Assembly: GCA_029962745.1 (NCBI GenBank) | Contig: CM057156.1 | Location: forward strand, 25,870,614 to 25,934,613 | Reading direction: 5' to 3' | Origin: Echinometra lucunter | Lineage: Eukaryota > Echinodermata > Echinoidea > Camarodonta > Echinometridae | DNA: 64,000 nt | Part shown: positions 17,711 through 62,663 of the stretch, one piece after another | How positions within the stretch are numbered: position 1 is the stretch's first letter | How the letters are laid out: each line of letters begins with the position of its first letter | Made by a program: the position numbers and the translations under genes | Notes under the pieces: generated by a model | What the model was told of the DNA's origin: nothing | Database searches by the model: none | Seen by the model: only the letters and a program-made list of their open reading frames with translations

Positions 17711-18636
17711 ATGCCTCCGCCCACCGTAGGTGGTTGCCGGAGGCATTATGTTTTCGGGTCGTCCGTCCGTCCGTCCGTCCGTCCGTCCGTCCGTCCCGTT
17801 TTCGTTCTCGCGATAACTTAAGAACCGTTTGACAGATCAACTTCAAACTTGGCTCATGTATGCATATGGGAGGGACAATGATCTGATTAGATTTTGGAGT
17901 CTCAAGGTCAAAGGTCAAGGTCATAGAGGTAATAATACACATAAAAATGGCTCGTTCTCGCGATAACTTAAGAACCATTTGACAGATTGGCTTCAAACTT
18001 GGCTCATGTATGCACATGGAAGGGACAATGATCTGATTAGATTTTTGGGTTACAAGGTCAAAGGTCAAAGGTCATAGAGGTCATTATGTACATAGAAATG
18101 GTTCGTTTTCACCATAACTCAACAACCATTTGACCGATCAACCTCAGACTTGGCACAGGTATGCATATAGGAGGGACAATGATCTGATTAGATTTTAGAG
18201 TCTCAAGGTCAACGGTCAAGGTCATAGAGGTAATAATTCACATAGAAATGGCTCGTTCTCACGATAACTTAAGAACTATTTAGACAGATTGGCTTCAAAC
18301 TTGGCTCATGTACGCACATGGAAGGGACAATGATCTGATTAGAATTTGGGGTCACAAGGTCAATGGTCAAAGGTCATAGAGGTCATTATGTACATAGAAA
18401 TGGTTCGTTTTCACCATAACTCAACAACCATTTGACAGATCAACCTCAAACTTGGCACAGGTATGCATATAGGAGGGACAATGAGCTGATTAGATTTTGG
18501 GATCTCAAGGTCAAAGGTCAAGGTCAAAGATGTCATTGTATAAATGAAAATAAATCAACATGAAGTGCCATGTATTTCTGATTTGGTAATGGCGGAGGCA
18601 TAAAGTTCGACCACGCGTGGTCGAAGATTCATCTAG
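17711..18636 (+). mobile_element. Tandem-unit element, family 1 copy 1 (Helentron-like)
   Basis: Starts with a hairpin (GCCTCCG... to CGGAGGC, 17713-17744), followed by (GTCC)n and then about five to six tandem units of 150-160 bp with the phrase ATAACTTAAGAACC...CAAACTTGGC. Near the 3' end the terminal word recurs as GGCGGAGGC, then a perfect 20-base palindrome TTCGACCACGCGTGGTCGAA (18606-18625), then CTAG at 18633-18636 before a T run. It has no coding capacity. Four exact AGGTCAAAGGTCA words lie in the units. Confidence 0.75.
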
Positions 18637-20968: not shown

Positions 20969-23900
20969 GTAAGAAAAAGAGGCCTTGTTTTTTTTTTTCA
21001 TTAGAAGTATATGGCTCCATACTGGGTGTTAAAAAAAGGAAATCCCACTTTGAAAAATACCTGTAAATGGATTATGTACTTTATACCTGTATGGTAACAA
21101 TGGTTTTCACTGATGCGTAACCCTGGAAACCCAAACAAGTTACCATTGGAAAGCAAATGAATTACACTTTCATGTGATATGAAATTCAATATTGGAAAAT
21201 ACATAATCCATTTACAGGATTTTTTCAAAGCTGGGTTTCTTGGGTTTTTTAAAACACCCAGTATAAATGCAGCTTATCACCACCATCACATCATTAATAT
21301 TGAAGTATTATACATGTACCTACAATGTAACAGGGCTCCATACATGACACATGGGTGCCTGAAATATAAGTTTTGACTTAAGACCCCTCAGTTTCAAAAT
21401 CTGTGGGGCTCATGTGCACTGATCCTAAATGTTTCATTCAGGACTCCCAGTGGAGGAGGTACATGTAAGTGAAAGGGAGCACAGAAATGTCACAAGTACT
21501 TAGCTCTATGCAAACAAGTCTACCTGTACATGTTAAATGTAAGTCTTGACCCCACAGTTTCAAAAAGGGATTGAGTTTCATGCAGGAAGACCCTTAAAAT
21601 CTCAGTTGATAACCCCTGTGAAGGTAAAGAGAGGCATTTAAGACTCTATACTTTAATACAACTAGGCACCCACGATACATGTGCACTCCGCATGCCGGTT
21701 GACTGTGCCACTGAAACCATTTAATTCAATTCAATTCAATTCATGGTTTATTAAAAAACATGTCTTGCAGTAATAAAGACTGAATTGCACATGTTTTTGC
21801 AAAGTTTTAAGTAGTTTACAAATACAAAATACAATTGCAAGTAAAAAATATTTAAATACGGAATTACACAGAAACTCATTGACAAAGATACATGTAGTAA
21901 ATAACATAACATAATATGCATTTATAAAATTATTCATGATAAATTCTAAAAACAACATGTTCACAGAGTTGTAAAGATATATTACTTATATACATTTGTA
22001 AATGAACAGATTAAAACATTATAGAAAAGTTTGAATTATTTTGAGATTTGATGTTTATTAAGCACTCATACAAGATTTGGAAGGGCACTGTTTTTAAATC
22101 TGTTTGTCCTGCAATTAAATTCTTTATATTTGTGTACATTGCGTAGATTAAAATGATTATTTCTTAGATTTTTTAGATTTAGATTCATTTATTTCCACAA
22201 TCTGATAAAAATACAGGTACAATAGCATAAAAAACATTCAAAAATACATTCAAACATGAATACAAAAGGGTACATTATAAATACAGCAAATAACAGAAAG
22301 TGGTGGGATTAACAATAGGCCTCAAGACCTTTCAAAGGTCAATCCCTATAACACAAAAGAGCTACAAAACGAAAAACCAAAGGGGAGGGGGGGGGGGGGA
22401 GAGGAACGGATAGGCAAATTAATAGGAGTTCAAAAGAAAATTTCTGAATGTTCGTTTAAAAGTCGAAAGACTTTGGCAAGACTTCAGGCTACTCGGAAGG
22501 CTATTTGAGGAGGTAACCAGGATTGGCACATTGTATTTTTTTTTTCAAATAAAAGTGCAAAATCTTGAGTAAAGTTTTTCTCTTTGAGATAAAAGGGTTG
22601 GTAACCCTATTACCCTAGCCCTGTCTGCAGGAATGGTCAGTTTTGTTTTTTTAAATACACCTGTAAGGCTGTAAGGATATACATGTAGGCCTACATGTAT
22701 GTACATGGTCAGCTGGCAGTACAATATATGTACACTGTAGGTCAAGTTTTCTTTGTTTTCAACTCCATTATTAAGGTCAGCTCATTCAGGTCCAAGAGGA
22801 ACAGATCAATTTTTGAAAGTCAAATAAACCACAGGAAGAAATCAAAGAAAGCAGATTTTTTTTCTCTTTAAGATGACCTGAAATAAGACATAACCGCTTC
22901 TCAGTGGCTGTTAACTCTGAGAATTAATGATGTCACTGTTCTAATATTATAAATGTGATGTATGTCAAAAATTTCCTTTCATGAATTTTTAAGCCTCTGC
23001 CCACCGTAAGTGGTTGCCAGAGGCATTATGTTTTGGGGTCATCCGTCCGTCCGTGCGTCCCGTTTTCGTTCTGCCATAACTTAAGAACCATTTGACAGAT
23101 CAACTTCAAACTTGGCTCGTGTATGCATATGGGAGGGACAGTGATCTGCTTAGATTTTGGAGTCTCAAGGTCATAGAGGTAATAATACACATAAAAATGG
23201 CTCGTTCTTGCGATAACTTAAGAACCATTTGACAGATTGGCTTCAAACTTGGCTCATGTACATGTATGCACATGATCTGATTAGATTTGGGGGTCACAAG
23301 GTCAAAGGTCAAAGGTCATAGAGGTCATTATGTACATAGAAATGGTTCTTTTTCACCATAACTCAACAAGCATTTGACTGATCAACCTCAAACTTGGCAC
23401 AGGTATGCATATAGGAGGGACAATGATCTGATTAGATTTTGGGGTCTCAAGGTCAAAGGTCAAAGGTCATATAGGTCATTATGTGCATAGAAATGGTTCG
23501 TTTGTGATAACTCAGTAACAATTTGACAGTTCAACAAACTTGGCTCATGTATGGATATGGAAAGGGCAATGCTCTCATTAGATTTTGGGGTCACAAGGTC
23601 AAAGGTCAAGGTCGAAGATGTCATTGTATAAATGAAAATAAATCAACATGAAGTGCCATTTATTTCTGATTTGGTAATGGCGGAGGCATAAAGTTCGACC
23701 ACGCGTGGTCGAAGATTCATCTTTTTTTTTTTGTGGAGACTTTATTTTAGTCATAGAGATTTTGAGTGAAGTGCAACTGTAATCACAATATTCTTGAAGA
23801 TACATGTAGAAGTGCCTTTAAAGTACATGTAGGTGATTCATTGCACTTAATATATCACTTCGCTTCCTGTATGCTGATGAGACCTCATTTTTATGTGCTG

Positions 23901-40800: not shown

Positions 40801-43350
40801 ATCTCTTAGTAATTAGGCAAAACAAGTTTCATTTTCTTTTTTATTATTTTGGTTTTTGTTTTTACAGTTTGCAGTCTGGGTTCCTGGCACAAAAGAGAAA
40901 GTGACATTTGATTGCCCGATAGCTGTTGGCACAATCCCTTTCAGACAGGCTCCCCCAATCAACCATCATCCTAGCCCACCACTCCACCAACCTAGCCCAG
41001 GACCAGGGCCAGACATGGGAGGCTTCTCTGTGGATATGCCTCCCCTGATAGATTGGTCCTCAAGAGACTTTGGTCCTTCCTTGGACCTAGCACCCAATCC
41101 CTACCCATCCTGCGCACCACCAAAGTACCCCGGTGGCCCTCTACCAGAAGGGACCAGCTTACCAAGTGCACCCCCACTTCCGGAGTATGAATCTGGATCA
41201 GGGACATTCATCGCACCACCGAGGACCACTACCACACCCCTGCGGAATGCACCTGATCTCCCAGAGTTCCACAAGTCAGCCTCTGACGGCAGGATCAATG
41301 CAGCGTTCCGACCAGCAAGCTTTGATGAAGCTGGCATCCATTCTCGAGCTCCGCCCGTCGCCCCTAAGCCTGCATCACCGAGGACTAGTCGGTCTTCTCC
41401 TTCCACCCCTAATGGTAACCCACTGGTCCTACCCAAGGTTGGTTCAACACCAGTCAAACTCAAGCCAACTAGACAAGCTCCTAAAGTAACAAACGGCAAA
41501 AAGCAAGGCTCTCCTCCTCGTTCTCGTGAGCTACCCCCGCCAAACATCTCACCAAACCGTCATATCTTTCAAGAACAAGGGGAAGGTGGGTATACTTTCT
41601 AAGTTAGTGTTAACCCGTAGGCCACTGGGATCAGGTGGTCCCTTTATCAAGCCTACATGGGAATATCTGATTTCAGTAGTCAATGTGTTAATAAATCTTT
41701 ATTGTGACTGCATGATGATCACCAATGCAAAATAAAGATAAAGCTTATTTGTGGGAAAATGCTGCAAGGGAGATGCAAAATTCAAGCAGGAATGCATTTA
41801 CAATGGTAGAAAGTGCAATACCCATTGGCTCTTAACGAATATTAGACAGATTGTACCATTAATTCAATTCTTAACTGAGACTGATTCCAAAGGCTTATTC
41901 AGATATCCAGCATCAAACTCCCACATTTCTTTTTTTCTTTTTATGTGTGTTTTTCTATTGTGCAACTTAAAGGAGAGGTCTAGGCGATTTCTGTAAGCAT
42001 GGATCATAAAGAGAAAAAATTCAGCAGCTAGAAAATGTCTTACTTTACACGACATACCCTAGGATTACCAAGTAATCAACAATTAACTTGTATAAACAGT
42101 AGTTCTAGTACAAGCCCATTTTCATCCACAATACAGTTTGCACCCGGGCCCAGTGACGTAACTGATGCACCGCAGGTAGGCCAGGCAATGCAAGCGATAT
42201 ATGTGTATGACATTCCGGCTCGAAGTGGTCTTCACACACTTTCTTTAACTTCGAAAATTTCTAAGTTTTGAAGTCGAATTTGTCCGTTCTAATATCATTA
42301 ATTCATCAGGCACACTTCTCCATGTCTGTCAGGGGATTCGGGATTGCAAAAAACTTCTCTTTGGAACAGAACTGGTGTGATTTGTATACCAAGAAGCTAG
42401 ACATATCGCCATTTTGCATAGAGAATGTGCAGAGAATAAGTGCGCATGCGCAGTGCAAATACATCGCCTACGTCACACGACCAATGACCATATTTGGGTT
42501 TCGGTGGGAAATTCAATTATTTGGAGTAAAAAAGCCAACACTTAATCGGTATTTAAAAATCACAGAAATCACTTTGATAAATGAAAGTAGCAATATCTGT
42601 TAGCGTGAATTTTAAGCTTTATAGTGTAATTTTAATGAAATCGTCTGGACTTCTCCTTTAATGGCATGAATTAATGAGATGCACATTAACCTGTCAATAG
42701 TAGTTCATGCTCATATAAAAGAGAATTTTGCAAAAAGCTGTGCAGGCAAATTGGCGCTGTCATACTTTGCACTTGCTTTATAAGATTTTGATTTTTCAGT
42801 CACCCCCTTCCCCCCCCCCCAAAAAAAAGGGGGGGGGGGTGCCCCTTCAGATGTGAACAAGCCATTGGGCAAAGGGTGTGTTTATTTGTTTGGTACATGA
42901 CCAATAACAGTTGAATATGAATTCAATTCTCTTTGCACTATTTTCTTTAGCTTTCTCAGACTGTGTTCATACATACATGTATCTGTATGCGGAGTGCATT
43001 CTTCCACATTCCAAGAAATATACATGTAATCCCACCTTTTTCTGAATTACACTGTTTATACCGGTATCTGTGTTTAAATGTTAAATCATTCATTCATATA
43101 ATAATCCTATTGCTTCTTTTCACTAACTCTTTCTTCCCTAGATTGTGCACATGCCTATGCTGAATGCATCTTTCCATCATCATCAGATCAGCCGGATGGG
43201 GGAAGAGGGAGAGGAGGAGGAGGAGGAGGGGGAGGAGGAAGGATAGAAGAGTATGATGACGATGTGGAAGACCAAGATCCTGATACCTACTCCTATGTAC
43301 CAATCTATGCCTATTCCATGCCAAATATTCAAGCCAATGGCGATGTTTGA
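20819..43350 (+). CDS. Alpha-arrestin (ARRDC/TXNIP family), complete eight-exon gene
   Basis: Coding exons are 20819-20968, 28905-29004, 35454-35520, 37216-37366, 38340-38436, 39003-39259, 40868-41585 and 43142-43350: 1749 nt, 582 residues plus TGA, with every GT-AG junction in phase. Residues about 5-150 form the arrestin N domain (LRGHAK, LPTSFESRHARIRYW, FTVIEHVDVN). About 157-300 form the arrestin C domain (CLCRK, HRKAFCPG-ESVHI, VGTIPF). The tail is proline-rich with one PPKY (358-361), a WW-domain ligand motif, and a related PPLPEY. Alpha-arrestins are cytosolic and membrane adaptors that recruit NEDD4-type ubiquitin ligases to receptors and transporters. The C-terminus has a poly-Gly tract and an acidic segment. 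The member (ARRDC2/3/4-like) cannot be fixed. Introns 3-6 hold AT-rich sequence and poly(G) runs. Confidence 0.95.
21022..21261. mobile_element. Hairpin MITE flanked by TA
   Basis: Arms of about 60 bases (21022-21080 and 21200-21261) are inverted copies with a few small gaps. The ends are CTGGGTGTT and AACACCCAG, with TA on both sides (21020-21021 and 21262-21263). This is mariner-type in target. It would form a long hairpin in the pre-mRNA just after exon 1. Confidence 0.8.
21720..22050 (-). mobile_element. LINE 3' tail
   Basis: On the minus strand the segment ends AATAAACCATGAATTGAATT with four AATTG-type repeats (plus-strand 21743-21720), the same style of tail as at 4785 and 5845. The rest is AT-rich with no ORF. 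Confidence 0.4.
22160..22540 (-). mobile_element. LINE 3' tail
   Basis: On the minus strand it ends GTGGAAATAAATGAATCTAA with repeated AATCTA words (plus-strand 22165-22190). This resembles a non-LTR 3' end. A 12-base poly(G) with one A lies inside near 22388. The left limit is not defined. Confidence 0.35.
22991..23722 (+). mobile_element. Tandem-unit element, family 1 copy 2 (Helentron-like)
   Basis: Same terminal hairpin (AGCCTCTGCCCACCG..., CAGAGGC), short GTCC run, tandem units and 3' module as the copy at 17711, including GGCGGAGGC and the same 20-base palindrome (23694-23713). It ends in a T run after GATTCATCT. It lies in alpha-arrestin intron 1 and carries five exact AGGTCAAAGGTCA words, some overlapping. 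Confidence 0.75.
28345..28383. repeat. (GA)n microsatellite
   Basis: About 19 uninterrupted GA units in intron 1. Shorter GA tracts occur at 24840-24854, 31832-31864 and 36757-36774. Confidence 0.9.
28905..29004 (+). CDS. Alpha-arrestin exon 2
   Basis: The acceptor is TTTTTTTTACAG. The exon has 33 codons plus one base (phase 1 exit) before GTAAGA. It encodes VTKNGNLLKPGEQDKTKLGQ and then AVNEYLNTKLQLT. This is the variable loop of the arrestin N domain, shorter than in vertebrate ARRDC3, followed by the strand that vertebrates write as a YFNHKDILIG-like segment. Confidence 0.9.
29492..29898 (-). mobile_element. TTAA-flanked MITE, copy 2
   Basis: Reverse-orientation copy of the element at 10091, with both terminal TTAA present (29488-29491 and 29899-29902) and ends CCCATTCGTGACAG and CTGTCACGAATGGG. 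About 407 bp, non-coding. Confidence 0.9.
30136..30282. mobile_element. hAT-like MITE, 147 bp
   Basis: Ends CAGTGATGGAGTCAAGGC and GCCTCGACTCCATCCCTG, flanked by the perfect 8-bp duplication CCTGTAAC (30128-30135 and 30283-30290). The interior is GC-rich with repeated GGCC-type words. Confidence 0.85.
34935..35342 (+). mobile_element. TTAA-flanked MITE, copy 3
   Basis: Plus-orientation copy with TTAA on both sides (34931-34934 and 35343-35346). Its ends carry one matching change in each arm (CCCATTCATGACAG and CTGTCATGAATGGG), so they remain complementary. It ends 111 bases before exon 3. Confidence 0.9.
35454..35520 (+). CDS. Alpha-arrestin exon 3
   Basis: A short exon of 67 nt. The acceptor is CCTTTTCTTGCAG; two bases complete codon 84 (GTG), 21 codons follow, and two bases are left before GTAAGA. 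It encodes GPSTTLPAGQSRLPFSFLLPE, the arrestin-fold strand equivalent to HSGRHEYAFSFELP in vertebrates. It was found by requiring a phase-matched exon between exons 2 and 4. Confidence 0.92.
37216..37366 (+). CDS. Alpha-arrestin exon 4
   Basis: The acceptor is CACCATACAG. One base completes codon 106, then 50 codons end at CTATTG before GTAGGT (phase 0). It encodes LPTSFESRHARIRYWLEAVI and then FTVIEHVDVNQPDLL. This is the most conserved part of the arrestin N domain; the SFE-R-RYW and FTV-IE-VDVN patterns are family signatures. Confidence 0.95.
38340..38436 (+). CDS. Alpha-arrestin exon 5
   Basis: The acceptor is TTTTTTTGCAG. It has 32 codons plus one base before GTAAGT. It encodes APVQESREHTIGCLCRKSFQ, ATVTLHRKAFCP, the start of the arrestin C domain. 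It parallels the KTLCCWFCTSGPISL and ERKGYTPGE region of ARRDC3. Confidence 0.95.
38869..38930 (+). pseudogene. Decayed partial duplicate of exon 6
   Basis: 62 bases align without gaps to the first 62 bases of exon 6 (39003-39064) at about 73% identity by hand count. In the matching frame they read ESIQINLKIVNITVESVQSQ beside ESVHINLETVNGTKKSLQAQ. The frame is preceded by TGA where exon 6 has its AAG-GA acceptor junction, and a TTTTAG acceptor 17 bases upstream enters the wrong frame. It is therefore read as an exon relic rather than a usable alternative exon. Confidence 0.7.
39003..39259 (+). CDS. Alpha-arrestin exon 6
   Basis: The acceptor is TCTTTCCAAG. Two bases complete Gly189, then 85 codons end at TTGCGT before GTAAGT (phase 0). 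This is the core of the arrestin C domain: ESVHINLETVNGTKKSL, FLQKIDYRVKGRTHTDSQQ and IQVPSIAPSINSCKIITVGY. The last phrase matches IPPVSPSI-C-II-V-Y of vertebrate members. Confidence 0.95.
40231..40507. mobile_element. TIR MITE in alpha-arrestin intron 6
   Basis: 277 bp. CCCTGTTCAGGCACTTTTTT at the left is inverted at the right as AAAAGAGTGCCTGAACAGGG. The interior has repeated TACGGTAC-like words. No clean target duplication could be read, so the superfamily is open. Confidence 0.7.
40868..41585 (+). CDS. Alpha-arrestin exon 7 (end of C domain and proline-rich tail)
   Basis: The acceptor is TTTTTACAG. It has 239 codons plus one base before GTGGGT. It opens with FAVWVPGTKEKVTFDCPIAV, GTIPF, which closes the arrestin C domain. 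About 210 residues rich in Pro and Ser follow, with PPKY at protein positions 358-361 and PLPEY at 377-381. The tail is predicted to be disordered. It is much longer than in vertebrate ARRDC3, which may reflect lineage-specific expansion. Confidence 0.93.
41967..42661. mobile_element. TTAA MITE in alpha-arrestin intron 7
   Basis: 695 bp with about 25-bp inverted ends: TTAAAGGAGAGGTCTAGGCG at 41967 and its near complement at 42642-42661 (CGTCTGGACTTCTCCTTTAA). The inner bases (ATTTC/GAAAT) also pair. Non-coding. Confidence 0.75.
43142..43350 (+). CDS. Alpha-arrestin exon 8 (C-terminus and stop)
   Basis: The acceptor is TTCTTCCCTAG. Two bases complete Asp514, then 68 codons and TGA at 43348-43350. 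It encodes CAHAYAECIF, a Gly/Arg run built from a (GGA)n microsatellite (43197-43245), an acidic stretch EEYDDDVEDQDPD, then TYSYVPIYAYSMPNIQANGD and a final V. The phase fits exon 7 exactly. Confidence 0.93.
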
Positions 43351-46738: not shown

Positions 46739-48270
46739 GTCTCGCCCACCGGAGGTGAAGGCGAGACTAAGGGATCCAAATGTCGTCCGTCCGTCGTCCG
46801 TCCGTCGTCCGTCCGTCGTCCGTCCGTCGTCCGTCCGTCCGTCCGTCACAAACGTTATGAAAGATAACTTGGCAACCGTGACTCACTTTTCAACCAAACT
46901 TGGGTTGTAGATGCACTAAGGGGACCTGCATGTTATGGTCCAGTCAGAGGTCACATGGTAAGGTCAAAGGTCATTTCAGGTCAAACGTTAAAGTTTACGT
47001 GCAAGACTCTCTTATGACACAAAACTCTGCAACCGTGACTCACTTTTCAACCAAACTTGGGTTGTAGATGCCCTAAGCGGACCTGCATGTTATGCTCTAG
47101 TCAGAGGTCACATGGTAAGGTCAAAGGTCATTTTAGGTCAAACGTTAAAATTTACGTGCAAGACTCTCTTATGACACAAAACTCTGCAACTGTGTGACAC
47201 TGTTCAATCAAACTTGGGTTGTAGATGCACTAAGGGGACCTGCATCTTATTGTCCAGTCAGAGGTCACATGGTAAGGTCAAAGGTCATTTCAGGTCAAAT
47301 GTTAAAGTTGACGTGCAAGACTCTCTTATCACACATAACTTTGCAACCGTGACTCACTTTTCAACCAAACTTGGGTTGTAGATGCACTGAGGGGACCTGC
47401 ATGTTATGGTCCAGTCAGAGGTCACATGGTAAGGTCAAAGGTCATTTCAGGTCAAACGTTGAAGTTTACGTGCAAGACTCTCTTATGACTCAAAACTCTG
47501 CAACCGTGTGACACTTATCTATCAAACTTGGGTTGTCGATGCACTAAGGGGACCTGCATGTTATGGTCCAGTCATAGGTCACATGGTAAGGTCAAAGGTC
47601 ATTTCAGGTCAAACATTAAAGTTTACGTGCAAGACTCTCTTATGACACAAAACTCTGCAACCGTGTGACACTTATCTATCAAACTTGGGTTGTAGATGCA
47701 CTAAGGGGACCTGCATGTTATGGTCCAGTCAGAGGTCACATGGTCAGGTCAAAGGTCATTACAGGTCAAACGTTGAACGGTTAAAGTTTACGTGCAAGAC
47801 TCTCTTATGACACAAAACTTTGCAACCGTGTCACACTTTTCAGTCAAACTTGGGTTGCAGATCACTAAGGGGAAGTGCATGTTATCATTCTGTTGGACTT
47901 CACATGATAAGGTGAAAGGTCATTGGAGGTCATATGTTACAGATGTTTTCAAATTCTTGAATTTGCTTTTCCTCTGTCATTTCTTGTATTTCAAACGTTA
48001 AAGTTTACCTGCAAGACTCTCTTATGACGCATAACTTGGCACATGTTGCTGCAATAGCAACCAAATTTAGGTGATAGATGCACTAGGGGTACATTCATGC
48101 TATTGTGCTGTCAGGTCACATGGTAAGGTGAAAGGTCATTTTAGGTCAAACTTTACGACCTGCAAGACTTTCTTGTGACATCAAACTTGGTTAGGGCAAG
48201 GGATGTACTTGGGGAAACTTTCGTGTTATTTAGCCACGGGTGGGCGAGACACAATCTTCCTATTGGCTTG
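46739..48270 (+). mobile_element. Tandem-unit element, family 2 (Helentron-like)
   Basis: The 5' hairpin is GTCTCGCCCACCGGAGGTGA ending GCGAGAC (46739-46767). A GTCGTCCGTCC microsatellite follows, then about eight units of roughly 155-160 bp (CAACCGTGACTCACTTTTCA, CAAACTTGGGTTGTAGATG, AGGTCACATGGTAAGG). The last units are degenerate. Near the end GGGTGGGCGAGAC (48238-48250) repeats the terminal word, and the element stops about CTTG at 48267-48270, before TTTT. Six exact AGGTCAAAGGTCA words are present. Confidence 0.75.
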
Positions 48271-50030: not shown

Positions 50031-50061
<31 letters not shown>

Positions 50062-51736
50062 TCAACAATTGTGTTGTACACCCAATAACTTTCTATAGCT
50101 TTAAGGTGGGATCACCAAATTCATACCAGAGGTCCATCTCTTGAAGGCGCAGGTCAAGTTCGAATATGAGTCGAATTTGAATAAGGTCAAAGGTCAATGA
50201 ACTTTCCATGACTGGCACTGTGCTATATTGTACACACAATAACTTTTTATACCTTCGAGGTAGGATTGCCAAATTCATACAAGAGGTCCATCTCTCGAAG
50301 GTTCAGGTCAAGTTCGAATGTGAGTTGAATTTGATTAAGGTCAAAGGTCAAAGGTCAATGAACTTTCCATGACTGGCACTGTGCTGTGTTGTACACACAA
50401 TAACTTTCTATAGCTTCGAGGTGGGATCACCAAATTTATACCAGAGGTACATCTCTTGAAGGCACAGGTCAAGTTTGAGTATGAGTTGAATTTGAATAAG
50501 GTCAGAGGTCAAAGGTCAATGAACTTTCCATGACTGGCACTGTGCTATGTTGTACACACAATAACTTTCTATACCTTCGAGGTAGGATTGCCAAATTCAT
50601 ATGAGAGGTCCATCTCTTGAAGGTGCAGGTCAAGTTCGAATGTGAGTTGAATTTGATTAAGGTCAAAGGTCAAAGGTCAATGAACTTTTCATAACTGGCA
50701 CTGTGCTATGTTGTACACCTAATAACTTTCTATAGCTTTGACGTGGAATCACCAAATTCATACCAGAGGTCCATCTCTTGAAGGCGCAGGTCAAGTTCGA
50801 ATATGAGTCGAATTTGAATAAGGTCAAAGGTCAATGAACTTTCCATGACTGGCACTGTGCTATATTGTACACACAATAACTTTTTATACCTTCGAGGTAG
50901 GATTGCCAAATTCATACAAGAGGTCCATCTCTTGAAGGTGCAGGTCAAGTTCGAATGTGAGTTGAATTTGATTAAGGTCAAAGGTCAAAGGTCAATGAAC
51001 TTTCCATGACTGGCACTGTGCTGTGTTGTACACACAATAACTTTCTATAGCTTCGAGGTGGGATCACCAAATTTATACCAGAGGTACATCTCTTGAAGGC
51101 ACAGGTCAAGTTTGAGTATGAGTTAAATTTGAATAAGGTCAGAGGTCAAAGGTCAATGAACTTTCCATGACTGGCACTGTGCTATGTTGTACACACAATA
51201 ACTTTCTATACCTTCGAGGTAGGATTGCCAAATTCATATGAGAGGTCCATCTCTTGAAGGTGCAGGTCAAGTTCGAATGTGAGTTGAATTTGATTAAGGT
51301 CAAAGGTCAAAGGTCAATGAACTTTTCATAACTGGCACTGTGCTATGTTGTACACCTAATAACTTTCTATAGCTTTGACGTGGAATCACCAAATTCATAC
51401 CATTTTTCAAACAATAAGTTTTCCATAACACCTTAATAATTAATTTAATTTTGCAATTTTACTCACATTATTATCAGTTACATTCTTTTTCACTAACATT
51501 CATTTCCTTACTTGCATGGAAATAATTATAGCTTCATAGTATTAACAGCATTCTTAGTGTTATCTGATTTCCTAGGGATAAAGTAGGCCTATACCATTAT
51601 TGCATATGTAAACTGTCAGAACCACAATTCACCCCCTAAACTGCTGACAGCCTCAGAAGTCATATAGCATAGTTTTGACATGCAGTCTCTTCATGACTGC
51701 AATATGCAGGCGAGACAACGCTTGGCGTTTGCCTTG
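49984..51736 (+). mobile_element. Tandem-unit element, family 3, with higher-order repeat (Helentron-like)
   Basis: The 5' hairpin is GTCTCGCCTGCGTAGCGGAG ending GCGAGAC (49984-50009), followed by a (GGCGTCGTC)n run (50034-50062). Then come about eight units of roughly 159 bp, arranged as two near-identical 637-bp blocks of four units (50084-50720 and 50721-51357) plus a partial unit. About 300 bp of unique AT-rich sequence follows, then GCAGGCGAGAC (51706-51716), a small hairpin AACGC-TTG-GCGTT (51717-51729) and CTTG (51733-51736). Twelve exact AGGTCAAAGGTCA words are present. Non-coding. Confidence 0.8.
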
Positions 51737-52518: not shown

Positions 52519-52523
52519 CACAA
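52519..52523. repeat. Target-site duplication of the LTR element, left copy
   Basis: CACAA directly before the left LTR. The same five bases follow the right LTR at 61054-61058. Five bases is usual for gypsy-type integrases. Confidence 0.9.
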
Positions 52524-54380
52524 TGTCAGATCAATGCACTGTTTTGCAAAGTCTGGCGATAAGTACTGTTCTGTGATATAGGATTGTTGGTTAGGAATAC
52601 ACAAAGAAAAAAATTACTCGAGATTCATTGCCATTATATTAATCAACTCTTGGGATTTTAATGTATCTCCTTCTTTTCTTCAACTCTTCAATATTCACAT
52701 TGAGTATAATCTCATAAATTCCCAACCTACATACTTCAACAATATATTCACTTCATATGTCAATGAAATAGCTTTACATGACTCATGCAATATGATGTAT
52801 TCCAGTGATAAATGACTTTCACATCATAAAAGGAAATATTGACTATATAAATACAACAGGTTAACAAATCTTTCCATTTCTTCTGTAAGAAATAAAATTA
52901 CCCCCTTTTGGTACAGCAGTACTGCAAACATTCAAAAATACAAAACTTGAGCTCAACTAATCAAAATACTTGGGTTTACATAGCACGTGCAATATTTCTG
53001 GACTATTTGATAAACTGTAAATTATGTGTTCGCGACTGTTCTCAACCCTATGGACAGCCCTTACATTCTATCGCTCTGTGCTTCAGGTGAGTCTTTATAG
53101 CGAACCGCACATAGACTTGTGACAGAATGACCATGGGTGCTCGAGATAACAGTTGCTTTCGGGCTCGATGTCATCGACGTAGTCGTCATCGACGCTCTGT
53201 CGAACTCGGTGACGTTACACGTAGCTCGTCTAGTAGACAGAGGATCCCATCTCAGTGGTATAGGACAAGATATGTCCTGGAACCCAGCTGCCTGTCTGCT
53301 GTTAAAACATAATTACAACCTACGAGTCACAGCATACAGGTTTACCCAATAATTCTAAATATATACATTCATGAAACTTTTTCAAGAGACTGCTTCTTGC
53401 ATGTATAAGAAAGACAATTGAAGTATCAAAACGAATCAGAAAAGCAATATTCAAATATGTCCAAATACTGATTCAGGTCAATATCTCAAAAAGAAAAAAT
53501 AATCACTGAATTTCATGATCACTATAATGCAAACATTTCTTGGCTATCAAAGCTCTATATATAATTTATCTTCATTTAGCAGTCTAAATATCTATATTAA
53601 AAAAAATATTCCTTTTACTTTATTTTCAAGTAACTGCACATTAAATTACGAAATTAAATCTCTTCGTTTCTCCAATGTGCCACAGAAAAATATCCATTAT
53701 CTGTTAGCTTATTTGAGCAATATTTTAGCCACAGAATTTATTCTACACAAAATATCACCAAAATTTAATCTCTTAAATTCTTTCTGTCTGATGAAAATAC
53801 AAAGATTCATGGCACAGATATACTAGTTAACTAGTTTACTAATTAAATAATTCATTTCATTTGTTTTCCAGTAAAATGCTAGAGCTCTGTGTCTTACTTT
53901 ATGCAAATGAATTTTGATTCCTGTGCCACGCCTTAATTTGTGGCATTACACTATATACAAGAAAATAGGATAAATCATGGAAAATTACCGCAACAACATA
54001 AACTTACTGGTCTCAAAATCATGATGGGAGCTGTAGAGGAGTCTTCTCCTGGCCTGCTTTGCCCAGATTTTCATAGAAGATGGCACCAAAATATGAAGTT
54101 AATTGCTGCGCATCCTATCTCCTCTCACACTCACTCAGCACACAGGTCCTGCCTTGACCAATGCTGAAGTTGCTCTGCCCAGTAGCTAACTCATGCAACA
54201 TACACCAAGCATACTTGCTCAGCTCTGCATAGCTCATTGCACAAGGTATCACTGTCCAGCACACATCACTCACATAACTCTCCCATTCAATACGTGCACT
54301 CTGCCCTAAGAGACTATTGTTCCTATGGGTCTGGTAGTAATTGCTGTTCCCTCATTTAAATTCCTGGTCACTTTGTGACA
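52524..54380 (-). repeat. LTR (3' LTR in element orientation)
   Basis: 1857 bp, from TGTCA to TGACA on the plus strand. The lines compared are identical to the right LTR except for a run of eight A here (at about 53600) against nine there. Small open frames inside are present in both copies and are not considered genes. Confidence 0.95.
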
Positions 54381-54394
54381 TTCTCCCCCTCCTT
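54381..54394 (-). promoter_or_regulatory. Polypurine tract
   Basis: On the minus strand AAGGAGGGGGAGAA directly abuts the 3' LTR. This is the expected position and composition for the plus-strand primer of reverse transcription. Confidence 0.9.
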
Positions 54395-54535
54395 AAAAGA
54401 ATAATTATATCTTTAACTTGAATAAATATATAATTTTGATAGCTAAGAGTGACTTTTTCAAAACTGTAGAAACAAAACAAAATTCAAATTAAAAAAAAAT
54501 CAACTTGTCAGTCTGTCCTGTTCCTGCGTCTACAC

Positions 54536-57500
54536 TTAACTACCTTCAGAATCTGGGATTCTGCTAAGATAATCAGCTCCTACGTTCTCACTACTCTTTA
54601 TAGCAGTGATCGAGAATCGGTAAGGTTGTAGAGCTAAGGCCCATCTCAAGATCCTCCCATTTGCTACTTTAGACTTTGCGATGCAGGTGAGCGGCTGATG
54701 GTCTGTTTCGAGATGAAAATGAGTTCCATACAAGTAGGGCTCAAATTTCTGGATACCCCAGACAACAGCGAGACACTCGCGCTCCATAACTGCATATCGT
54801 TGTTCTCTCGGGAGCAGTTTTCTACTAGCGTATGCAATTGGGAACCTTTTCCCATCGACGTCTTGAAGAAGTATTGCTCCAAGTCCCACGTCGGATGCGT
54901 CTGTCCTTAGAATAAAAGATCGACTCAGATCTGGCAGGTGAAGAATTGGTTCCTCCGCTAGCTTCTGCTTGAGAGTAGTGAATGCACTCTCCTCAGATGG
55001 TCCCCATTTTACCTGTAATGGTTCGCCTTTCTTGGTTCTGTCCGTCAACGGAGCTGCTAGTGCGGCAAAGTTGGGGATAAACCGTCGATAATAACCGACG
55101 AGGCCAAGAAACGAGCGCATCTGTTTCTTGGTTCTTGGTTGGGGTGCACTCTTGATCGCTTCCACTTTCTCTGGGACTGGTCGTAGCTCACCATGTCCTA
55201 CTCGGTGTCCTAGGAATTCTACGTTCTCGCAACCGATGACACACTTGGTTGGTCTAGCCTTCAGGTGGGCTGCCTTCAACCTCTGCAACACATTCCTGAG
55301 GGTGTTGAGGTGCTCATCAAAAGTGGCTGTGTGGATGAGAATATCATCAATAAAGTTATCAACATTGTCTAATCCACGCAACAAATCACGCATGATTCGG
55401 CTAAAGCTTGCCGGAGCATTTACCAAACCAAAAGGCATAGCCTTGAACTGAAAAAGGCCATCCGGTGTCACAAAAGCTGTGAGTGGCTTTGCTTCGTCAG
55501 TTAGTGGCACTTGCCAGTAACCTTTCGTCAGGTCTATCTTCGTGAAAAATCTGTCATTGGCCAATTTACTGAAGATCTCCTCTGGGTCTGGGATGGGTTC
55601 TGCATCTGTCACTGTGACTTGGTTGAGTTTACGGTAGTCGCAACAAAACCTTACTGTACCATCCTTCTTTTTCACCATGACAACTGGGGATGCATACGGT
55701 GAGGATGAAGGCTCTACTATGTCGAGATCGATCATCTTTCGAACTTCTTTCTTCACTTCCTCTCGTAGTGCATGAGGTAAAGGGTAAGGCTTGCACTTGA
55801 TTGGCTCCTTATCTGTCAGCTTTATGTCATGTTGCCCGAGGTTTGTTCTTCCTGGTAAATCGGTCAAGGTATCTTCAAACTCCTGAAGAAGGGTGTTAAC
55901 TCTGTCATGCTGATCTTGGGTCAGATGTGGACTGATCTGTACATCATCGATGTTCTCCGACTGGGTGAGGGACGGAAGCTGGAGTAGATCCCTGCGCACA
56001 GCTGGTTTCTCTTCAGATTCCTCATCCATGGTATCATCGACGACAGATGTACACACCACATCCAAGACGCCAACATGGTCCTCTCTCCGGAAGAATTTCT
56101 TAAGGAGATTAGCATGAAAAGTCTTGATGTTTCCTTCTATGTCCAGTCTGTAGTCCATCTGTCCAACCTTCTCTACTACCTGGTATGGACCTCGCCATTG
56201 CATTAACAACTTGTTGTTGTCAGTTGGTAGAAGAAGGAGAACTTCATCGCCAATCTCGAACTTTCTCATCTTCGCCTTCTTGTTGTACTGCTTTCTGTAT
56301 CGATCTGCAGCCTTGCTCAGATTCTCCTGTGCTACTTTGCAGGTTGCCTCTAGTCGGTCTTTGAGGTCCAAGACGTACTGATAAGTAGTCTTCGTCTCTG
56401 GTTCGACTGCATTGCCTGTCCAAAGCTCTTGGAGAATGGCTAGTGGTCCACGAACAGAACGGCCATACAAAAGTTCAAAAGGCGAAAATCCTGTGCTCTC
56501 TTGAATCGATTCCCTGTATGCGAAAAGTAGAGGGTTAAGGTAACGATCCCAGTCCTTGGGTCTCTCCTCGCACATTTTCCTAAGCATCGATTTTAGAGTC
56601 CCATTGAATCTCTCAATTAATCCGTTACACGCTGGGTGATACGGTGTTGTCGTCATCTGCCGGATCGAGAGAAGTCTACTTACTTCCTTCATCAAGTTCG
56701 ATGTGAACTGACTGCCTTTGTCCGTCAGAACTTCACGTGGGATGCCAACTCGCGAGTAGATGTCGACCAATGCCTCTGCTACAGTCTGGGTATCTATCCT
56801 CCGAAGATCCACTGCCTCTGGATATCTTGTAGCATAATCCATGACAGTCAAGATGAATCTGTTTCCCTTGCTGGTAGCAGGTTCGATTGGTCCGACTAAG
56901 TCCATCGCAATTCTACGAAAAGGCTCGTCAATAAGGGGGGTTGAACCAAGCGGAACTTTACTGACCTTACCCTTCGGCATAGTTCGCTGACAAGGTTCAC
57001 ATGAACGGCAGTATCGGTCAACATCGGCATGCATTGCTGGCCAGAAGAAATGTAGGAGTATCTTCTCCAGCGTCTTCTTCACACCGAGGTGTCCAGCCAG
57101 AATGGACTCATGCGCCAGTCTCATCACCTGGTCTCTGTACTTGGTAGGCACGACTACTTGTAAGACTGGGTCGGCTCCCGGTTTGGTGTCTACGTATTCT
57201 CTGTGTAGCACTCCCCTCCTGTAGAAAAAATGAGAAGAGTTACCTTGCCGACTTGTCTTCTTTTCGCCGGTGTCTGCACACTTTCTTGGGGTTGACAATG
57301 ACTCGTCCTCTGCTTGGGCTTTGATCAGATCGTCGACAGTCACCGCATCATCGAATGGCTTGGGTACAGCAAGGGGTGGCCTAGCCCGTGATGCTTGCCT
57401 CTTTTGTTCCCTCGTTTCCACTGCATTCGCCTGATGATTCCGCGGTGTCCAGTCAGGATCGGGGTCGTCCGATTTCCTCACTCCTGACACTTGTCCTAGC

Positions 57501-58957
57501 ACCAAGTCGTAGACTGGATCCTTCACACAGAGTGCCTCTACCTCGCCTGTGAAGTAGGGTGTATCAATCTGTAAAATAGCAACTTGAAAAGATCTAACAG
57601 TCCTGTCAATTAATACACAAGTTTTTTCTTCTTTACAAAGCTGGTCTTCCCGCACCAAATCTCGTCTCACCACCACCGTAGAACAGCCTGTGTCCCGTAG
57701 CACGTCCACTAGGGTACCATTGACGACACCTCTGCAGACCCGGAGTCCATCCTGTCGTACTCCACATGCCGCTGCAGACAACAGTGGCAAGGTATCCCCG
57801 TCGGCTAACTTGACACTCATCCTGTCTTCGGTGAGATTCCTTTCTATGACCGAAGATTTATCTACGATTAGACACATACCTTCCTCATTCTCTGCAGAGA
57901 AGGAACGTTGCAGGCCAGTCTTTCCTGTCTCAACGTTGTCTGTTCCTGTTTCTGCCGATTCGCTGACAGGTCCAGCAACACTTAGGCTTGCTCCTTTCTC
58001 TGGTTTCTTCTTCTTCTGGGGGCAGTTCCAGGAAAGATGTCCAGCCTTCTTGCAAAGGTAGCATGTCTTCTCTGTCCCTTGACTTGACTTTGGTCCAGCC
58101 TTGTCACCAGAAGGCTGACTCTCCTGTCCCCTACTCTTTGAACTGTTTCCATCAGACAGCTGGGTTCCTGTAGATGGTCTATCTCTCATCCTGCGTATCC
58201 TTGGGTCTGCATGAGCATCTCTATACTGATCTGCAAGTTTCAAAAGATTCTGCAAATTCGAAGGTTGACGTTCTTTAACGAACATTAACAACTCTTTGTT
58301 ACATGTATCTAGCACTTGCTCTTGTAGTATGAGACTCTTGACACCAACAATATCATCATCATAACAGCTAAGTTCTAGCCATCTATCAAAATACTTTTCA
58401 ATTCTAGATGCGAATTGAACATAACTTTCTCCCGATTGGATTTTTGCATGTCGAAACTTCAACCTATAACCTTCCTCGGTTAAATCATAACCCTTCAATA
58501 AGGCGGTTTTTACTGCACTATAATCTTTAGCCTCAGAAACTGTAAGTCTAGAAACAATCTGAAGTGCTTTCCCTGTTAACAAAGCAGATAAAGCTAAGGC
58601 CAGATCATCAGAATTCCACCCAACACTAGAGGCATGTCTTTCGAAACGACAAAGGTAGCTATCAATATCATCCTTACCATCCTGAAAAGGTGGAATGGGA
58701 GGAATATTTACTTTAGGACCAGATCGCGAAGTACTTCCACTCTCTCTCCTAAGCTCCTCTAATCTAATCTGTTGTGCAAGTAACTCTGACTCTAACCTTT
58801 TAGCTTCAGTTTCAGCAGCTCTCGCTTCACTAGCAGCAGCTCTTGCTTCAGCCCTTTCCTCTCGTGCTTCTTTCACACAGTCATCAACATACACCTTCAG
58901 ATCATCCCCACTAAGACCAAAAGATTTCCCCTGTTCTATGAATTTATCCCGATCCAT
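54536..58957 (-). CDS. Gag-pol polyprotein of the LTR element (gag-PR-IN-RT-RH)
   Basis: 1473 residues from the first ATG of the frame (58957). The frame is open to 59020 upstream, but only a TTG and no ATG lies there. In order: an Ala/Glu-rich coiled coil (about 26-76); a gag domain (90-255); a CCHC knuckle C299-C302-H307-C312; a protease motif DTG at 422-424; integrase with H616-H623-C653-C656, a core D686-D746-E782 (35 residues between the last two) and a GPY motif near 923; reverse transcriptase with D1142 and FIDD 1202-1205; RNase H with D1353, E1394, D1419 and D1462, ending ADYLSR. No stop or frameshift is seen. The FIDD box is a variant of YxDD that gypsy elements tolerate. The integrase-before-RT order is unusual for this superfamily. 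Confidence 0.95.
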   Translation of the reverse strand: MDRDKFIEQGKSFGLSGDDLKVYVDDCVKEAREERAEARAAASEARAAETEAKRLESELLAQQIRLEELRRESGSTSRSGPKVNIPPIPPFQDGKDDIDSYLCRFERHASSVGWNSDDLALALSALLTGKALQIVSRLTVSEAKDYSAVKTALLKGYDLTEEGYRLKFRHAKIQSGESYVQFASRIEKYFDRWLELSCYDDDIVGVKSLILQEQVLDTCNKELLMFVKERQPSNLQNLLKLADQYRDAHADPRIRRMRDRPSTGTQLSDGNSSKSRGQESQPSGDKAGPKSSQGTEKTCYLCKKAGHLSWNCPQKKKKPEKGASLSVAGPVSESAETGTDNVETGKTGLQRSFSAENEEGMCLIVDKSSVIERNLTEDRMSVKLADGDTLPLLSAAACGVRQDGLRVCRGVVNGTLVDVLRDTGCSTVVVRRDLVREDQLCKEEKTCVLIDRTVRSFQVAILQIDTPYFTGEVEALCVKDPVYDLVLGQVSGVRKSDDPDPDWTPRNHQANAVETREQKRQASRARPPLAVPKPFDDAVTVDDLIKAQAEDESLSTPRKCADTGEKKTSRQGNSSHFFYRRGVLHREYVDTKPGADPVLQVVVPTKYRDQVMRLAHESILAGHLGVKKTLEKILLHFFWPAMHADVDRYCRSCEPCQRTMPKGKVSKVPLGSTPLIDEPFRRIAMDLVGPIEPATSKGNRFILTVMDYATRYPEAVDLRRIDTQTVAEALVDIYSRVGIPREVLTDKGSQFTSNLMKEVSRLLSIRQMTTTPYHPACNGLIERFNGTLKSMLRKMCEERPKDWDRYLNPLLFAYRESIQESTGFSPFELLYGRSVRGPLAILQELWTGNAVEPETKTTYQYVLDLKDRLEATCKVAQENLSKAADRYRKQYNKKAKMRKFEIGDEVLLLLPTDNNKLLMQWRGPYQVVEKVGQMDYRLDIEGNIKTFHANLLKKFFRREDHVGVLDVVCTSVVDDTMDEESEEKPAVRRDLLQLPSLTQSENIDDVQISPHLTQDQHDRVNTLLQEFEDTLTDLPGRTNLGQHDIKLTDKEPIKCKPYPLPHALREEVKKEVRKMIDLDIVEPSSSPYASPVVMVKKKDGTVRFCCDYRKLNQVTVTDAEPIPDPEEIFSKLANDRFFTKIDLTKGYWQVPLTDEAKPLTAFVTPDGLFQFKAMPFGLVNAPASFSRIMRDLLRGLDNVDNFIDDILIHTATFDEHLNTLRNVLQRLKAAHLKARPTKCVIGCENVEFLGHRVGHGELRPVPEKVEAIKSAPQPRTKKQMRSFLGLVGYYRRFIPNFAALAAPLTDRTKKGEPLQVKWGPSEESAFTTLKQKLAEEPILHLPDLSRSFILRTDASDVGLGAILLQDVDGKRFPIAYASRKLLPREQRYAVMERECLAVVWGIQKFEPYLYGTHFHLETDHQPLTCIAKSKVANGRILRWALALQPYRFSITAIKSSENVGADYLSRIPDSEGS

Positions 58958-59174
58958 ACCAACAGTTTGCAGCGCTCTGACCAACCTATGAAAATTGGGT
59001 AAGCAGTCTAGTCCACAGGCCTAGGGTGAAAACTCCTCTCAGCTCCAGTAGCCCTGACATGCACCGTTATTCTCTAAGGAGAAAAGACAAAATACAAACA
59101 AGTTAATTCAGTTTACAAATTCTACATTCGAAACCAACTTCTATACATTTTAACTGTACCTATCAAAAGAGAAA

Positions 59175-59192
59175 GTCCCTTCGTGGTCGCCA
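59175..59192 (-). promoter_or_regulatory. Primer-binding site, tRNA-Arg type
   Basis: On the minus strand, three bases after the 5' LTR, TGGCGACCACGAAGGGAC is complementary to a tRNA 3' end reading GTCCCTTCGTGGTCGCCA. From memory this is the T-arm and acceptor end of animal tRNA-Arg (UCG/CCG). Confidence 0.8.
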
Positions 59193-59195
59193 ATT

Positions 59196-61053
59196 TGTCA
59201 GATCAATGCACTGTTTTGCAAAGTCTGGCGATAAGTACTGTTCTGTGATATAGGATTGTTGGTTAGGAATACACAAAGAAAAAAATTACTCGAGATTCAT
59301 TGCCATTATATTAATCAACTCTTGGGATTTTAATGTATCTCCTTCTTTTCTTCAACTCTTCAATATTCACATTGAGTATAATCTCATAAATTCCCAACCT
59401 ACATACTTCAACAATATATTCACTTCATATGTCAATGAAATAGCTTTACATGACTCATGCAATATGATGTATTCCAGTGATAAATGACTTTCACATCATA
59501 AAAGGAAATATTGACTATATAAATACAACAGGTTAACAAATCTTTCCATTTCTTCTGTAAGAAATAAAATTACCCCCTTTTGGTACAGCAGTACTGCAAA
59601 CATTCAAAAATACAAAACTTGAGCTCAACTAATCAAAATACTTGGGTTTACATAGCACGTGCAATATTTCTGGACTATTTGATAAACTGTAAATTATGTG
59701 TTCGCGACTGTTCTCAACCCTATGGACAGCCCTTACATTCTATCGCTCTGTGCTTCAGGTGAGTCTTTATAGCGAACCGCACATAGACTTGTGACAGAAT
59801 GACCATGGGTGCTCGAGATAACAGTTGCTTTCGGGCTCGATGTCATCGACGTAGTCGTCATCGACGCTCTGTCGAACTCGGTGACGTTACACGTAGCTCG
59901 TCTAGTAGACAGAGGATCCCATCTCAGTGGTATAGGACAAGATATGTCCTGGAACCCAGCTGCCTGTCTGCTGTTAAAACATAATTACAACCTACGAGTC
60001 ACAGCATACAGGTTTACCCAATAATTCTAAATATATACATTCATGAAACTTTTTCAAGAGACTGCTTCTTGCATGTATAAGAAAGACAATTGAAGTATCA
60101 AAACGAATCAGAAAAGCAATATTCAAATATGTCCAAATACTGATTCAGGTCAATATCTCAAAAAGAAAAAATAATCACTGAATTTCATGATCACTATAAT
60201 GCAAACATTTCTTGGCTATCAAAGCTCTATATATAATTTATCTTCATTTAGCAGTCTAAATATCTATATTAAAAAAAAATATTCCTTTTACTTTATTTTC
60301 AAGTAACTGCACATTAAATTACGAAATTAAATCTCTTCGTTTCTCCAATGTGCCACAGAAAAATATCCATTATCTGTTAGCTTATTTGAGCAATATTTTA
60401 GCCACAGAATTTATTCTACACAAAATATCACCAAAATTTAATCTCTTAAATTCTTTCTGTCTGATGAAAATACAAAGATTCATGGCACAGATATACTAGT
60501 TAACTAGTTTACTAATTAAATAATTCATTTCATTTGTTTTCCAGTAAAATGCTAGAGCTCTGTGTCTTACTTTATGCAAATGAATTTTGATTCCTGTGCC
60601 ACGCCTTAATTTGTGGCATTACACTATATACAAGAAAATAGGATAAATCATGGAAAATTACCGCAACAACATAAACTTACTGGTCTCAAAATCATGATGG
60701 GAGCTGTAGAGGAGTCTTCTCCTGGCCTGCTTTGCCCAGATTTTCATAGAAGATGGCACCAAAATATGAAGTTAATTGCTGCGCATCCTATCTCCTCTCA
60801 CACTCACTCAGCACACAGGTCCTGCCTTGACCAATGCTGAAGTTGCTCTGCCCAGTAGCTAACTCATGCAACATACACCAAGCATACTTGCTCAGCTCTG
60901 CATAGCTCATTGCACAAGGTATCACTGTCCAGCACACATCACTCACATAACTCTCCCATTCAATACGTGCACTCTGCCCTAAGAGACTATTGTTCCTATG
61001 GGTCTGGTAGTAATTGCTGTTCCCTCATTTAAATTCCTGGTCACTTTGTGACA
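59196..61053 (-). repeat. LTR (5' LTR in element orientation)
   Basis: 1858 bp, one A longer than the left LTR. It should contain the element promoter reading leftward, but U3, R and U5 limits cannot be set from sequence alone. Confidence 0.95.
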
Positions 61054-61178
61054 CACAATATCAGTCATAATAAGTCTACTTGCCAATCCTGTTATAACTT
61101 AAAGATAAATTGCAAAAAAAGGCATGCAAGCGTAACCTGCATGACAAGTCATGTGTAATACATAGGAAGAACATGTCT

Positions 61179-61265: not shown

Positions 61266-62663
61266 CTATGGTGGCCCTGAAGTACGCTCGACAAAAGGCC
61301 ATGTGCGACGTGAATTTCACATCCCAGGTCCTGAACTTTGCATCCCAAGTCGTGAAATTCACGACCCGCGACGTGAATTTCGCATCCGAGGTCCCGCCCA
61401 GGTCCTGAACTTTGCATCCCAAGTCGTGAAATTCGCGACCCGCGGTGCGAAATTAAGGACTGGGATGCAAAGTTCGCGCCACGGGTCCTGAATTTCGCAC
61501 CGCGGGTCGTGAATTTCACGACTTGGGATGCAAAGTTCAGGACCTGGGATGTGAAATTCTAATGTGATATCTTTTTGGACCGATTTTTCAGACATAATAA
61601 TTTACACGGAGTATATAGTGGTATATATGAATGTGAATGATATGTAGGAAATGATTAACCTTAAAGCAACCTTACATGTTCCTGAAGATTACTAATTTGT
61701 CACTATATTTTCGCAAGTAGAAACCATGATTTTATCATAATGTAAGTCTAGTAGGAGCAATTAATATTGATTGTTTGAACAGTGTTGTACTTGATTCATA
61801 TTGATTTCGTTCTGTTTGATTCACAGCGGTAATTTCTCCGGCGTACTATGCAAAGTTCATTCCAAAGTACCAGCGTAACGCTACTCCCTGCAAACATACA
61901 CGTACCAACGAACTAAAGCATAGTTCTGTGGCACGTACCCATTGTTGTTGTTGTCGTTCGTTCCGTTCGATTCGTGTACCGAATATTGACGCCATCTACG
62001 TGCGGGTTTCTTTTTTGTTGTTGTTTTGGGGTTTTTTTTATAATGTATTTCACGAGGGGTCCACAGGTCCGTCTTGGTGACGGTCCTCCCACTTGCACGT
62101 ACCCATGACAATGGGTTTTGTAGATGGAGGATCAAGGGGGTCATATGGGGCAGAGGCAGATCAAGGATCTTGTAAGGAAGGGGTGCATGTGGGAATAAAT
62201 ATCAGAAAATTTCTGGCAAGCTCTCTCCCCCCCCCCCCGCCGCAAGTCATGATACATTATTTTGAGAGTCTTCTTGTCTTTCCAAGAAGAAAGGTCAAGT
62301 CATTTGGTTGAAAAAAGGTGTGTGTATGTGGGAGGGGGGGGGGGCACAATCTGCAAGTTGGTTTTAAGGGGGGAGTCCAGATGCCTATACTTTATTCGCC
62401 ACTGATAATTAGGCCTATGTGAAATATCATTCCACCCCCCCCCTCTCCCCAAGTCATGGCACTGCAATTTGAAGATCTTCTTATCTCTCCCAGGGAAAAG
62501 TTAAGTGAATTTCACGACTTGGGATGCAGAGTTTGCGCCACGGTCATGAATTTCGCATCGCGGGTCGTGAATTTCACGACTTGGGATGCAGAGTTCAGGA
62601 CCTGGGATGCGAAATTCACGTCCCACATGACCTGTTGTCGAGCGTTCTTCAGGGCCACCATAG
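61266..62663. repeat. Inverted-repeat element made of nested palindromic words
   Basis: The ends are inverted: CTATGGTGGCCCTGAAGTAC, GCTCGAC at 61266-61292 and GTCGAGC, GTTCTTCAGGGCCACCATAG at 62637-62663. Next to each end are blocks (61310-61560 and 62500-62625) in which the words GTCCTGAACTTTGCATCCCA, AGTCGTGAAATTC and ACGACCCGCG alternate in direct and inverted order. One 41-base arm (61331-61371) is exactly inverted at 61503-61543. The blocks are GC- and CpG-rich in an AT-rich setting. The 0.9-kb centre (61560-62500) is AT-rich with poly(C/G) runs. No transposase is seen and the family is not recognised. Confidence 0.7.

Follow-up and report, generated by a model that had tools for sequence, protein, structure and literature searches.

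How should a retrotransposon be classified that has gypsy-like motifs but, as in copia, an integrase encoded before the reverse transcriptase (RT), and what does that order tell us about its host? A single long open reading frame in the stretch of 64,000 nucleotides analysed here (the window) raises these questions. A preliminary description, which covered the ORF only, had placed it in the Gmr1-like group; Gmr1-type Ty3/gypsy elements were reportedly described by Goodwin and Poulter. From its anatomy, its domain order and trees that do not include the cod Gmr1 itself, we conclude with high confidence that the locus is a complete LTR retrotransposon that inserted recently and belongs to the integrase-first (Gmr1-type) branch of Ty3/gypsy; its host is most likely a sea urchin.

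The open reading frame and the element around it

The frame lies on the minus strand, which the preliminary description had left unstated; it runs from an ATG at 58957 to a stop at 54536 and is open as far as 58984. A Pfam search, run on three pieces of the ORF, gave the domain order SCAN, Integrase_H2C2, rve, SH3_Tf2-1, RVT_1 and RT_RNaseH, with the following features:

54536..58957, minus: single gag-pol ORF, 1473 aa from ATG
58208..58474, minus: SCAN-type domain of gag (Pfam PF02023, 34.4 bits, cut-off 27)
58022..58063, minus: CCHC knuckle of gag, CYLCKKAGHLSWNC (Pfam 16.5 bits, under the cut-off of 20.8; motif present)
57680..57694, minus: protease active-site motif DTGCS, aa 422-426 (gag-asp_proteas, E 0.048, under the Pfam cut-off; motif present)
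56978..57151, minus: HHCC zinc-binding domain of integrase (Integrase_H2C2, 77.3 bits)
56609..56926, minus: integrase core with D686, D746 and E782, numbered from the ATG (rve, 49.3 bits)
56093..56224, minus: C-terminal SH3 / GPY module of integrase (SH3_Tf2-1, 33.0 bits)
55199..55675, minus: reverse transcriptase, FIDD at aa 1202-1205 (RVT_1, 111.6 bits)
54620..55006, minus: RNase H (RT_RNaseH, 128.8 bits)

The HHCC residues of the integrase are H616, H623, C653 and C656, and the catalytic residues D1353, E1394 and D1419 of RNase H are present. In 54-row alignments, each HHCC and DDE residue is found in at least 97 percent of filled rows, and this is also true of D1204, D1205 and each of the RNase H residues named. 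A frame that stays open over 1473 codons and carries these domains in order is not a chance product. The Pfam order and the motifs bear out the reading of one ORF that runs from gag, CCHC knuckle and protease through an HHCC/DDE integrase with GPY module to RT and RNase H, and the open frame with its catalytic motifs agrees with the view that this member is apparently intact.

To this ORF we can now add the element that surrounds it:

52524..61053, minus: whole LTR retrotransposon, 8530 bp
59196..61053, minus: 5' LTR (element orientation), 1858 bp, TG...CA
52524..54380, minus: 3' LTR, 1857 bp, TG...CA
52519..52523, no strand: target-site duplication CACAA, copy 1
61054..61058, no strand: target-site duplication CACAA, copy 2
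59175..59192, minus: primer-binding site TGGCGACCACGAAGGGAC, complementary at 18 of 18 positions to the CCA-bearing 3' end of tRNA-Arg(TCG)
54381..54394, minus: polypurine tract AAGGAGGGGGAGAA, immediately before the 3' LTR

The element is complete, with both LTRs, the target-site duplication, the primer-binding site and the polypurine tract legible. One A in an A-run is the sole difference between the LTRs, and the absence of any substitution across 1857 bp indicates a recent insertion. Both outer ends are bordered by the 5-bp duplication CACAA. The primer-binding site starts three bases internal to the 5' LTR; it was matched to what we take to be the tRNA-Arg(TCG) sequence, which ARAGORN called as tRNA-Arg with anticodon tcg. 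From the 5' LTR to the ATG there is a leader of 238 bp, and the 155 bp between the stop and the 3' LTR leave no space for an env gene there. No further copy of the element was found within the window.

Ty3/gypsy enzymes with a common history

The RT with RNase H and the integrase with its HHCC, DDE and GPY parts are both of Ty3/gypsy type, and the integrase does not lie at the C-terminal end of pol, its place in ordinary Ty3/gypsy elements, where RT comes first. Among solved structures, the closest relative of the RT by sequence is Ty3 RT (E 2.1e-89), and that of the integrase is again Ty3 (E 2.1e-31), with foamy-virus integrase behind it (4.9e-26). This yeast element (PDB 4ol8, 7q5b) has its RT ahead of its integrase, unlike the element in the window; the matched stretches are 584-1009 and 1089-1449 of 7q5b. 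For a Ty1/copia element whose motifs are gypsy-like by accident, the domain order alone speaks. The strong RVT_1 and RT_RNaseH matches and the two Ty3 structures speak against it, as does the absence of RVT_2, presumably the Pfam name of the copia-type RT, from all matches up to E 10, and the probability of such an accident is practically negligible. We therefore reject a copia origin on the profiles, the trees being without copia sequences, and agree with the earlier view that the motifs are gypsy-like despite the copia-type order.

The order itself is common among relatives of the element. A protein search with the RT-RNase H region gave at least 5373 matches among 7960 candidates scored, and in the best 120, which were listed, integrase precedes RT in 115, the reverse holds in four and RT stands alone in one. 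All four RT-first proteins carry the label Cordylochernes scorpioides; in three, both domains occur more than once, and in the fourth RT occurs twice. Stricter length limits divide the same 120 into 100 integrase-first, 4 RT-first and 16 incomplete proteins. A second search, queried with one of the RT-first proteins among the best 120, supplied the comparison set, and its 116 new proteins comprise 76 RT-first, 29 incomplete and 11 integrase-first ones. These last 11 could be caused by several copies strung in one gene model, an arrangement seen for P0031, P0046 and P0055. The integrase core was also sought with a motif pattern, which missed 30 of the 120 proteins, including P0001, even though P0001 aligns over the integrase, and we did not use this unreliable count.

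RT and integrase trees were built from 54 rows, namely the window, 37 integrase-first proteins, 15 RT-first proteins and Ty3. The 37 were drawn from the 100 usable ones as the 12 best plus 25 manual choices, many of them made because the host is named, and the 15 from 80, via 70 with integrase closely behind RT; no Gmr1-named record was among the fetched proteins. A single branch of the RT tree (100/100) separates all 38 integrase-first rows, including the window, from the others. The integrase tree of all rows has the same 38 on one side (SH-aLRT 99), and the split persists after removal of three long RT-first rows (100/99), with long-branch warnings for both integrase trees, even without those three, and with Ty3 long in all trees. 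P0001 and P0002 are the nearest rows to the window in RT and integrase trees alike, and a nine-row clade that includes the window has identical membership, with support, in both. Among the 38 rows, RT and integrase distances are correlated (r = 0.926), and none of 2000 permutations reached as high a value.

These results bear on whether the ORF is a chimera, with an integrase taken from a copia-type frame or from a second element, an idea that has in its favour the Ty1/copia order (as given in an excerpt of PMC6238403). The agreement of the distances argues against a join of two elements, and so do the two nearest rows and the nine-row clade shared by the trees, the gypsy type of both enzymes by Pfam and best PDB match without a copia RT profile up to E 10, and an order common to 115 of the 120 best-listed relatives. 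Thus, we reject a chimera, which is extremely unlikely given congruent trees and correlated distances, and retain a non-chimeric ORF. The phylogenetic check suggested in the preliminary description, made here with Ty3 and RT-first rows as references, places both domains in one integrase-first clade.

Gmr1-type organisation and host range

In Gmr1, a gypsy clade, integrase is encoded upstream of RT according to excerpts of PMC6238403 and PMC8220671, and excerpts of PMC4131045 and PMC4592553 describe a SCAN domain for over half of the Gmr elements of frogs and its resemblance to the Gmr1-like capsid. The element in the window has integrase upstream of RT in one pol, gypsy-type RT and integrase, and a SCAN-like gag capsid, as Gmr1-type elements do. 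We found no structural difference from them, in a comparison that left the 1.86 kb LTRs aside. Because it has these printed features, we place the element in the known group; the Gmr1-type order is already published, and the element is an ordinary further member. A SCAN domain is given for 92 of the 120 best-listed RT-RNase H relatives and was seen in none of the 120 listed rows of the second search, both tables being read by eye. It is very unlikely that the element belongs to an integrase-first Ty3/gypsy lineage apart from Gmr1 proper that reached the same order independently. Trees without Gmr1 itself leave room for this, but all 38 integrase-first rows, echinoderm, hemichordate and scallop ones among them, share one side of a branch, and the literature gives a gag of SCAN type as a trait of Gmr1 (in the same excerpts of PMC4131045 and PMC4592553).

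The closest relatives share the domain order of the window, and each is distinct from it by sequence: RT-RNase H identity is 90 percent for P0001, 85 percent for P0002, 79 percent for P0004 (labelled Strongylocentrotus purpuratus XP_001186509.2) and 77 percent for P0009 (labelled Diadema antillarum). P0004 and P0009, the members of the nine-row clade with named hosts, are labelled as sea urchin proteins; unlike for the element in the window, the precomputed domain list shows no SCAN for either. Among the matches listed, named hosts of integrase-first relatives are sea urchins, sea stars, a brittle star, sea cucumbers, a feather star, a hemichordate and scallops, the last labelled Pecten, Argopecten, Ylistrum and Mizuhopecten among the best 120. 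Since scallop proteins have the order too, the order alone is no proof of a deuterostome host. Excerpts of PMC8556966 count Gmr1 among five gypsy clades found in several phyla, and those of PMC8220671 report it from an annelid. The Gmr1-type assignment stands by order and motifs, but the claim that the order supports a deuterostome host was too strong. A sea urchin affinity is what the closeness of the relatives, not the domain order, points to, and our results suggest that integrase-first order is a stable trait of the clade that by itself is no sign of a deuterostome host.

In the oyster proteins among the best 120, only the HHCC part of the integrase lies ahead of RT. Thirteen of the 120 listed relatives (P0096, P0104, P0108 and P0111-P0120), eight of them labelled Magallana or Crassostrea, have one common junction, at which, compared with scallop relatives, the whole integrase core and part of the C-terminal module are gone in frame, with HHCC, RT and RNase H kept. 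A residue-by-residue alignment covered three of these proteins, and the junction string is present in all 13. These proteins may be either a spread subfamily that lacks an integrase and would borrow one, or the result of an intron in the gene models.

Proposed replication and other features of the window

The anatomy fits ordinary LTR retrotransposition through one polyprotein. The 5' LTR would drive transcription of one RNA, whose single frame would need no frameshift to yield a Gag-PR-IN-RT-RH polyprotein. From this, the protease would release the integrase from its position between protease and RT, so that integrase-first order would shift the location of the cuts around integrase. Minus-strand synthesis would be primed by tRNA-Arg(TCG) and plus-strand synthesis by the polypurine tract, and integrase would insert the cDNA via a 5-bp staggered cut. 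The features described suggest that the element could be active at present. We consider it a tentative possibility, somewhat short of an even chance, that it is still active and that integrase-first order and SCAN-type gag arose once before the echinoderm-bivalve split, or spread between the two. If so, this copy could model how an integrase ahead of RT is excised and used. Intact and young, with readable LTRs, target-site duplication and priming sites, the element exemplifies a published but unusual pol organisation and adds an apparently echinoid family.

Searches of the window with Rfam (at gathering scores) and ARAGORN gave no matches. Four tandem arrays with units of 145-161 bp contain AAGGTCAAAGGTCA words (17760-18537, 23167-23625, 46782-47939 and 50031-51402), and in three cases a short array rich in CGTC or GTC precedes the start by no more than 30 bases. 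Just beyond the element, 21-bp units around GGGATGCAAAGTTC / GTGAATTTC form clusters at 61305-61559 and about 62510-62630; the former builds long inverted repeats, whose arms measure 64 and 70 bp (at 97 and 94 percent). An exon-like plus-strand frame of 248 aa at 40856-41602 is proline-rich after its start, which resembles the end of an arrestin-domain protein. A Pfam search with this frame gave nothing up to E 1, and one homologue, at 76 percent identity, was found among 673 candidates.
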